A DNA stretch of 5,139 nucleotides, taken from contig JACQWU010000256.1 of NCBI GenBank assembly GCA_016209155.1, positions 1 through 5,139 on the forward strand, given 5' to 3'. The DNA is from Candidatus Desantisiibacteriota bacterium (GTDB taxonomy: Bacteria; JACRDZ01). A program made the position numbers and the translations under genes. This document shows, piece by piece, positions 1 to 1,586 of this stretch; the stretch's first letter is position 1, and each line of letters opens with the position of its first letter. The notes under the pieces are model-generated. The model was given only the letters and a program-made list of their open reading frames with translations, searched no databases and was not told the DNA's origin.

Positions 1-93
1 AAAATAACTTTTTATTTTAATAAATCCAATGGACTTTTCGGAGCCTTAGACATATCCCTCATCCGCAGAACCAATTTAAAATTTAACAAATAA
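1..93 (+). other. Open frame of unclear status at left edge, possibly the 3' end of an upstream gene
   Basis: Reading from base 1, thirty codons are open before a TAA at 91-93. The other two + frames close within the first 20 bases. The translated piece includes SNGLFGALDISLIRRTN, which I do not recognise. It lies in the same frame as the epimerase fragment that starts at 109, separated by the TAA and five codons. The middle of the stretch (about 30-75) is richer in GC than its flanks. It could be the C-terminus of a gene cut by the window edge, or non-coding or repeat DNA that is open by chance. The - strand also has a short open run here. No function is assigned. Confidence 0.2.
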
Positions 94-104
94 GCGGGGG
101 CAGA
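82..104 (+). repeat. Left copy of a spaced G-rich motif (TTTAA, 7 bases, GCGGGGGCA)
   Basis: TTTAA at 82-86 is followed after seven bases by GCGGGGGCA at 94-102, then one base and an A. The same spaced pattern occurs on the - strand at the right end of the window (5139-5117). The G run also sits just ahead of the ATG at 109, so it may simply act as a weak ribosome binding site. Membership of a dispersed repeat family is an inference. Confidence 0.3.
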
Positions 105-108
105 AAAA

Positions 109-327
109 ATGAAGGTTGGGATTACAGGTGCGGGAGGAAATGTTGGGACGACTCTGCGTAAGGGATTATCGTCAAAATATGAGCTCATTCTTTATGATAT
201 TAATAATATAAAGCAAGCCGGCGGCAATAATTTCTTTAAGGTTGATTTTGCGGACAAGAATGTTGATAGAGATATTTTTAAGGGATTGGAACAATTCGGA
301 AAACTATTTTTAAATTTTAGGGATTAA
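109..327 (+). pseudogene. Truncated NAD-dependent epimerase/dehydratase (N-terminal fragment)
   Basis: The 72-residue product begins like the extended short-chain dehydrogenase/NAD-dependent epimerase family, which modifies nucleotide sugars or related substrates and is usually about 250-340 residues long. The dinucleotide-binding fingerprint TGAGGNVG is present at residues 6-13. An acidic residue ends the second strand (YD, D30), and a KVDFAD segment follows near residues 43-48. Family-like sequence stops around FKGL (residues 57-60), where members normally continue into the third strand (like VIHLA) and later the YxxxK catalytic pair; all of this is missing. The tail LFLNFRD looks unrelated and ends six bases before the HD gene. 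The fragment cannot be a working enzyme. GC counted by eye is 45% in bases 121-180 but 15% in 301-360, consistent with a junction near 290. The start is ATG at 109 with a weak GGGGG upstream; an in-frame TAA lies at 91-93. Confidence 0.7.
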
Positions 328-333
328 AATATT

Positions 334-924
334 ATGAATACAAGATTTCAAAAACAAATTAATTTTATTCTTGAAATTGATAAATTAAAAACTATTTTTC
401 GTAAAACCCGTTTATTGGATAATTCAAGATATGAAAATTCTGCTGAACACGGCTGGTATATGGCAATAATGGCAATTTTATTGTTAGAATATTCAAAAGA
501 ATCGAATATTGATATCTTAAAAGTTATTAAAATGGCATTAATTCATGACATCGTTGAGATTGATGCAGGTGATACTTATTTATATGATTCTGAATCACAA
601 AAAAATAAATCTCAAAAAGAAAAAAAAGCAGCAAAACGCATATTCGGGATTCTTCCTGATGATCAGCGGGATGAATTTATAATATTATGGAATGAGTTTG
701 AAGAAAAAAAAACAAAAGAAGCAAAATTTGCTGCTGTACTTGACAGGATTGGACCGCTTATACAAAATTATCATACAAAAGGATGTGAATGGAAAAAAAA
801 CAGTATTAAAAGCAGTCAAGTATATTCGGCAAATCAGCATATTGAACAGGGTTCAACAGAACTTTGGAATTTTGCCAGACAAATTATAGATGATTCTGTA
901 AAAAAAGGGTACCTTGTAAAATAA
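334..924 (+). CDS. HD-domain phosphohydrolase, YfbR/HDDC2-like (probable 5'-deoxynucleotidase)
   Basis: This 196-residue protein matches the HD_3 family of cytosolic metal-dependent phosphohydrolases. Characterised relatives (E. coli YfbR, yeast Ygk1/human HDDC2) dephosphorylate deoxynucleoside 5'-monophosphates. The metal-binding H...HD...D set is complete: H39 in AEHGW, H71-D72 in HDIVEIDAGD, and D137 in LDRIGPL. E75 and D80 of the HDIVEIDAGDT block and the NYHTKG segment (145-150) are also family-typical. Length is normal for the family, so the gene looks intact. The start is ATG at 334, with AGGGA at 319-323 as a modest ribosome site that lies inside the end of the epimerase fragment. GC counted by eye in bases 481-540, 541-600 and 601-660 is 20, 32 and 30%, well below the bactofilin (50 and 38% in two sampled lines). 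This suggests acquisition from elsewhere. The exact substrate is inferred from the family only. Confidence 0.85.
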   Translation: MNTRFQKQINFILEIDKLKTIFRKTRLLDNSRYENSAEHGWYMAIMAILLLEYSKESNIDILKVIKMALIHDIVEIDAGDTYLYDSESQKNKSQKEKKAAKRIFGILPDDQRDEFIILWNEFEEKKTKEAKFAAVLDRIGPLIQNYHTKGCEWKKNSIKSSQVYSANQHIEQGSTELWNFARQIIDDSVKKGYLVK

Positions 925-956
925 TTACCTGAATCTTGCACTTCAGATTCAGGTAA
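925..956 (+). terminator. Perfect 12-bp hairpin directly after the HD gene, possible terminator
   Basis: TTACCTGAATCT at 925-936 is the exact reverse complement of AGATTCAGGTAA at 945-956, with an 8-base loop. It begins at the base after the HD gene's TAA. No clear T run follows on the + strand (AAAATC), whereas on the - strand the tail is T-rich. Factor-independent termination is therefore plausible but not textbook. It is the first part of a larger palindrome cluster. Confidence 0.5.
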
Positions 957-997
957 AATCGCCAAAGACGCAGGATTTTTGGATGTATTGGCGATTT
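956..997 (+). terminator. Second hairpin with GC-richer stem, candidate terminator
   Basis: AAATCGCCAA (956-965) pairs perfectly with TTGGCGATTT (988-997). The stem holds a CGCC/GGCG core and is followed by a moderately T-rich stretch (TTTCTCAATCTT). Of the hairpins here it is the one most like a + strand intrinsic terminator, although the 22-base loop is long. Confidence 0.35.
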
Positions 998-1087
998 CTC
1001 AATCTTGCTATGCAAGATTCAGGATATAAAAATTGAGGCAATCTGATTTATCAGACCTAATGCAGTAATTCGCGTAATTTGAAAGTA

Positions 1088-1151: not shown

Positions 1152-1586
1152 ATGACAACAACTCATAATAAAGAAAAGAGTCATGAGACTGAAGTTAAGA
1201 TAGGTACATTACTCGGAACCGGAACCCGGTTTCACGGAGAAATGGTTGGGGAAGGGAATATCCGGATTGACGGCAGGTTTAAAGGAAAAATAACGAGTAA
1301 AGGCAGTTTATATATAGGTAAAACAGGTGAAATAGAAGCAGATATTGAAATCGGCAGTGTTGTAATCGGCGGGAAGGTAAAGGGTTCTGTGGCAGCAAAA
1401 AGTAAAGCAGAATTAATTTCTCCCGCAAAATTTTTAGGGAATATCTCAACTCCGCGTATCAGTATAGTTGACGGAGTAATATTTGAAGGTTCATGTGTAA
1501 TGAATACACGAAAGAATCCAAGGGAACCCATAGCCCAGCTTCCGAATAATACTTCAGATCCGCAGGATGAGGATGTAAAAGTTTAA
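1152..1586 (+). CDS. Bactofilin (polymer-forming cytoskeletal protein)
   Basis: The 144-residue product is a bactofilin (PF04519, formerly DUF583). Bactofilins self-assemble without nucleotide into filaments, often under the inner membrane, and organise cell shape, stalks or peptidoglycan synthesis. The right-handed beta-helix core runs from about residue 17 to 117. It shows the repeating G-x-(I/V) pattern: GTRFHGEM, IRIDGRFKGKI (37-47), GSLYIGKTGEIEADI, VVIGGKVKGSV and a closing TPRISIVDGVIFEGSCVM. Short disordered tails flank it: a charged N-terminus (MTTTHNKEKSHETE) and a Pro/Asn/Asp-rich C-terminus (about 119-144), as usual in the family. There is no transmembrane segment. The ATG at 1152 is backed by a Shine-Dalgarno site and a strong promoter. 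It converges on the deacetylase gene 37 bases away and near an envelope lipid exporter, which fits an envelope or shape role. The specific role here is unknown. Confidence 0.93.
   Translation: MTTTHNKEKSHETEVKIGTLLGTGTRFHGEMVGEGNIRIDGRFKGKITSKGSLYIGKTGEIEADIEIGSVVIGGKVKGSVAAKSKAELISPAKFLGNISTPRISIVDGVIFEGSCVMNTRKNPREPIAQLPNNTSDPQDEDVKV

Follow-up and report, generated by a model that had tools for sequence, protein, structure and literature searches.

Several families of short non-autonomous transposable elements (MITEs) are known from bacteria, and Correia/NEMIS, RUP, ERIC, Bcr1 and Nezha have been listed together (PMC3733652). The repeat family described here resembles these elements in that its many copies are short and intergenic, contain no coding gene, end in inverted repeats and have strong secondary structure as well as a target duplication, but differs from them in its sequence, its 5-bp TAWTA target and its three size classes, which extend down to a solo hairpin. 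The Tn3-derived miniature elements (TIMEs) are likewise non-autonomous and make 5-bp duplications at AT-rich targets, but they have conserved 38-bp Tn3 ends (PMC4133298), from which the ends of our family differ. REP/REPIN palindromes, of which a GTAG or CGTC tag is the defining feature (PMC3733652), have solo hairpins, inverted pairs, intergenic placement and proximity to stop codons in common with our family, which differs from them by a 5-bp target duplication and by having neither the tag nor a link to Y1-transposase genes. The IS1380 family (IS1247, ISPme1, ISEcp1), in which IS1247 makes a 5-bp duplication (PMC3281130), is alike in its CC ends and 4-5-bp duplications but carries a transposase, whereas our element has no gene.

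The locus lies in a 5,139-nucleotide stretch of DNA (the window) from a Candidatus Desantisiibacteriota bacterium, and the genome searched was the window's own bin (3,075,986 bases in 352 contigs, 79% complete). About 90 matching places were found when window positions 915-1040 served as the query, and the many intergenic copies returned by BLASTN are what an initial sequence-only reading had named as support for a dispersed element. This 3.08-Mb bin has no fewer than 46 insertions in which both ends are present; matches to the 12-base end CCTGAATCTTGC with at most one mismatch number 86 genome-wide, compared with 3 for a reversed control pattern. These dispersed copies with exact ends, which are direct observations, take three forms: a full form of ~177 bp, a shorter form without the centre, and 26-27-bp hairpins on their own (solo hairpins). 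The solo form is commoner than the full one (36 to 10), and the centre-less form comprises the window copy (96 bp) and a copy on contig C277, both with the same internal deletion. Two types of solo hairpin were told apart by length, A (loop ACTTC region) and B (12-bp stem, 3-base loop). No gene lies inside the element, either in the 96 bp of the window copy or at the full length of ~177 bp. No copies beyond chance fragments were found in 60 other genomes, related or distant, including three of the same phylum, and searches of viral, phage and plasmid collections gave no convincing sequence relative. A pattern scan of GTDB returned eight matches, about what chance would give, in unrelated bacteria; several of them are within genes, and they have no core in common.

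In a few cases (C277, C27 and C149), the copy is cut short or split by a second repeat. A MITE-like second repeat, some 110-140 bp long, with 24 ends of the sequence GGGCTGTCCAAAAAGGTG and no control match, was observed at G000:C27:5992-6127, C277:10687-10815 and C320:15004-15132 and on C131, C224, C280 and C344. At C277, C27 and C320, it splits copies of the window family or lies directly against them; in its ends it is similar to an IS1182 element at C59 (L128). A third dispersed repeat, containing CCCTGCCTTAGAAAGGCAGGGTATTAATGGCAC, was found at 14 places (0 control matches), namely G000:C70:10164-10196, C256:16970-17002 and 12 others, in two cases with a solo hairpin 25-60 bp downstream.

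The evidence for transposition comes from the flanks. Element bounds were set at CC...GG and the 46 insertions were pooled. Identical flanking 5-mers were observed in 23 of the 46, compared with 6.4 expected from shuffling partners; the largest number of identical pairs in 5000 shuffles was 15, and 23 was never reached (p < 1/5000). Flank identity at lengths 3, 4, 6, 7 and 8 gave no signal across the same insertions. The target consensus is TAWTA, yet nine of the 23 identical pairs are words other than the commonest, TAATA and TATTA (TATAA twice, and TATTT, TACTA, TAAAA, TGATA, TTATA, AAATA and TATGA once each), and composition cannot explain these nine matches. Full copies taken alone have identical 5-mers in 5 of 10 cases (2.0 expected, p 0.013), and half of the solo hairpins have perfect 5-bp duplications of their own. 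A TA-only duplication of the IS630/mariner type was rejected, as the identity is specific to 5 bp and as TATTT, TAAAA and AAATA, which are without TA on one side, still duplicate all five bases. Flank identity at this one fixed length, observed directly, is a target-site duplication and thus points to a MITE mobilised by a transposase. Together with many dispersed copies, fixed terminal inverted repeats and a short length without a transposase gene, it makes the feature almost certainly a non-autonomous transposable element; the dispersed intergenic copies and the duplication bear out the non-autonomous palindromic element that the earlier reading had listed among its options.

The window copy was compared with its relatives in an alignment with nine full-length copies (A1). 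In the full copy, the order of hairpins is A, AAAATCGCC...GGTGATTTT, a central ACCGTAC...GTACGGT, AAAATCGCC...GGCGATTT, and B, and the terminal inverted repeats CCTGAATCTTGC...GCAAGATTCAGG form fixed ends in all full copies. The full copy is an imperfect palindrome made up of nested hairpins (in several copies, sequence and reverse complement are 69-72% identical) with a predicted fold of -84.5 kcal/mol (z -12.7). Its ~120-bp core is conserved at a mean column identity of 90%, from which it follows that full copies spread as a unit. Hairpins two and three are missing from the window copy, which has lost ~80 bases of the centre between repeats of AATCGCC, and the junction falls in this repeated word. 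A longer ancestor is evident from the relatives; it had a hairpin at either end, and its centre was lost in the window copy. This is not the small palindrome duplicated around a different central one that had been proposed, and the 10-bp palindrome seen at the centre is, as judged from the alignment, the fourth hairpin of the full element. Because the window copy's own flanks agree at just 3 of 5 bases, a degenerate target duplication, its membership of the family rests on sequence. Coordinates are given in Table 1.

Table 1. Features of the window copy and its neighbourhood (positions in the window).
Feature	Position	Strand	Remarks
Very probable mobile element, CC...GG, 96-bp internally deleted member of the ~177-bp MITE family	928..1023	+	Aligned with nine full-length copies; 94-100% identity over retained parts
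Left terminal inverted repeat CCTGAATCTTGCAC	928..941	+	Pairs with right end over 928-940/1011-1023 (13 bp, 100% complementarity)
Hairpin A	925..956	+	Stem 925-936/945-956 (12 bp, 100% complementarity); elsewhere present as solo hairpin
Inner hairpin AAATCGCCAA...TTGGCGATTT	956..997	+	Pair 956-965/988-997 (10 bp, 100% complementarity); at deletion junction, ~80 bases of full copies missing
Hairpin B / right terminal inverted repeat (TCTCAATCTTGC TAT GCAAGATTCAGG)	997..1023	+	
Left flanking 5-mer AATTA	923..927	+	Expected target duplication, degenerate in window copy
Right flanking 5-mer ATATA	1024..1028	+	
HD-domain gene (PF13023, YfbR-like)	334..924	+	Host sequence, outside element
Bactofilin gene (PF04519)	1152..1586	+	Downstream, outside element

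The four inverted-repeat pairs (12, 10, 8 and 13 bp) that had first drawn attention to the locus were recovered at their coordinates by a repeat search of the window. The third hairpin was detected as an 11-bp pair at 91% (998-1008/1012-1022), inside which lies a perfect 8-bp core, AATCTTGC/GCAAGATT, at 1001-1008/1012-1019. The cores are also direct repeats of one another (929-939/998-1008 and 945-953/1015-1023), which bears on how the element decays. When the 121-nt region was folded, a free energy of -37.5 kcal/mol was obtained, compared with -20.6 +/- 3.2 in shuffles (z -5.3; none of 200 shuffles as good). Two competing global folds had been predicted, and both appear, with three hairpins in the minimum-energy fold and the long outer stem in the centroid fold. 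Upstream of the HD-domain gene, window positions 1-327 hold a 72-aa open frame with an epimerase-like start (NAD-dependent; MKVGITGAGGNVGTTLRKGL), an early stop and no Pfam match, which is probably a truncated gene remnant.

Such folds, and the z-score of the full copy, could also be those of a structured RNA at the 3' end of the transcript of the HD gene, or of a terminator or attenuator of transcription at the same place. Many copies do lie a few bases past a stop codon; in the window, the TAA stop of the HD-domain gene ends 3 bases before the element. On the + strand, however, no T run follows the last hairpin, the sole terminator-like match being on the minus strand, and copies sit within the likely operons hisB-hisH and lon-panD, 25-60 bases upstream of the next start codon, which speaks against a terminator. 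One compensatory change, G-C to U-A, was seen within hairpin B, but across ten copies it was the one pair in the local hairpins with changes on both sides, the long stem had none, and this is no better than controls; the full copies vary too little for covariation to support either global fold. An Rfam search gave no family at the gathering score, and the sub-threshold matches are due to chance. The structured RNA that had been offered as an alternative is not supported by covariation, by Rfam or by the 60 other genomes. We regard this explanation as very improbable and conclude that the element is not a regulatory or conserved RNA, nor a terminator.

The insertions are in short AT-rich spots between genes, none clearly inside one. 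Three frames that start or pass close to a copy were flagged (L055, L058 and L061), but each seems to be a neighbouring frame extended on its start side. The TAA stop of the upstream gene is within the duplicated 5-mer (TAA-TA or TAA-AA, distance 2 or 0) in about nine to ten of the 46 insertions, so that the stop codon is intact after insertion. This survival of the stop helps explain hairpins right behind stop codons without a regulatory role.

Solo and paired inverted hairpins between genes, often just past a stop codon, are also what would be expected of REP/REPIN palindromes (hairpins and hairpin dimers) mobilised by a RAYT (REP-associated tyrosine transposase), and the genome has six Y1-transposase genes, three of them just below the NCBIfam RAYT cut-off. 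Y1 transposases are not known to make a target duplication. Because the family has a 5-bp duplication, and because no GTAG or CGTC tag stands beside its hairpins, we exclude this origin as highly improbable; within about 1.5 kb of the six Y1 loci, CCTGAATCTTGC was not found at up to two mismatches. At one of the Y1 genes (L096, G000:C106, around 1428, 1673 and 2032), we observed repeated short hairpins, GTAGGGAACGGTTtcaAACCGTTCC, with a GTAG start, which are a candidate REP/RAYT system separate from the MITE family.

The MITE would be moved in trans by a DDE-type transposase, with the terminal inverted repeats CCTGAATCTTGC...GCAAGATTCAGG as its recognition sites. Insertion would be into AT-rich targets of 5 bp (consensus TAWTA), which become duplicated in the process. 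We infer this transposase, as well as the deletion mechanism described below and any activity, present or past. Among insertion sequence families with 5-bp duplications, IS1380 is one that has CC ends, and our best guess, from the ends and the duplications, is an IS1380-like transposase. Three IS1380 elements that start CCCGGAT (L132, L136 and L143) served as yardsticks. The MITE has CC at its ends and a duplication of 5 bp, compared with 4-5 bp in the yardsticks, and has 9 of 13 end bases in common with both L132 (end CCCGGATATTTCATAA, duplication TTAG) and L143 (end CCCGGATTCTGCAGTT, duplication TTGAA).

Mobilisation by another 5-bp-duplicating transposase, such as IS1634 or Tn3, is a substantial possibility, if not the one we would choose. 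An IS1634 transposase remnant is present in the genome (L130, NF033559, 141 bits) and some measured IS1634 elements start CC. These elements mostly have 4-bp duplications, however, and have 6-8 of 13 end bases in common with the MITE, compared with 9 of 13 for the two IS1380 elements, a small difference in a small sample by which IS1380 is only favoured over IS1634. For a Tn3-type mobiliser, the AT-rich 5-bp duplications of the TIMEs would fit, but Tn3 ends start GGGG, and Tn3 was rejected since its transposase is absent from the assembled genome. Among the DDE_Tnp_1 elements considered as partners, L128 was rejected as an IS1182 with GGCTGTCC-like ends, L129 for its 9-bp duplication, and L130 and L131 as remnants without matching ends. 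As for the IS1380-like transposase itself, none (PF13701/NF033539) was found in the genome's own assembly (79% complete) or in the same-phylum genomes, and the assembled 79% holds no autonomous partner with the same ends, a feature that would be supporting and not required. Repeated insertion sequences often fail to assemble in such bins, and the absence of a partner is therefore weak evidence.

After insertion, the MITE would decay through deletions between short direct repeats that lie within it. Loss of the centre between the AATCGCC repeats would give the 96-bp form seen in the window, and recombination between the left or the right arms of the end hairpins would leave a single 26-27-bp hairpin between both target duplications. 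Hairpins A and B have arms that are direct repeats of each other. Solo A would result if deletion joined the two right arms, and solo B, with the left end of hairpin A, if it joined the two left arms. Solo B hairpins start CC in 11 of 12 cases, as does the outer left end of the element, compared with 2 of 10 for hairpin B within full copies (Fisher p 0.0015), and such a hybrid is what an arm-to-arm deletion is expected to produce. The solo hairpins thus look like internal deletions between hairpin arms, for which solo LTRs offer an analogy. The CC starts fit deletion, although a mobile solo hairpin would need CC ends too, and direct insertion of solo hairpins is in principle conceivable. If solo hairpins were what moves, and the long elements composites of two of them, this would suit their excess over full copies and their perfect 5-bp duplications in half of cases. 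A transposase could presumably hardly pair ends 2-8 bases apart, however, and the conserved core of full copies that spread as a unit, together with the hybrid ends of solo B, also argues against this reading, which we consider unlikely. In the right hairpins of L032 and L040, the loop orientation is flipped (the right end at C112 is an inverted type A, and C233 has loop ATA for TAT), which suggests hairpin inversion or exchange between hairpins.

Taken together, these results support well a new MITE family of a well-known kind, the window copy being an internal-deletion derivative. An undescribed family is thereby added from a sparsely sampled bacterial phylum, one that appears to decay into REP-like solo hairpins. 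These footprints are its most interesting aspect, the element being otherwise ordinary in kind. We lean slightly towards the view that the hairpin arms drive a clean removal of the MITE, turning long copies into 26-27-bp footprints that keep both target duplications, and that most of the 'repetitive palindromes' of this lineage are transposon scars; if true, this would be a transposon route to REP-like hairpins in which no RAYT is needed. If the process is general, MITE scars, recognisable by their 5-bp duplication, may be present among the dispersed palindromes that are now called REP-like in bacteria.
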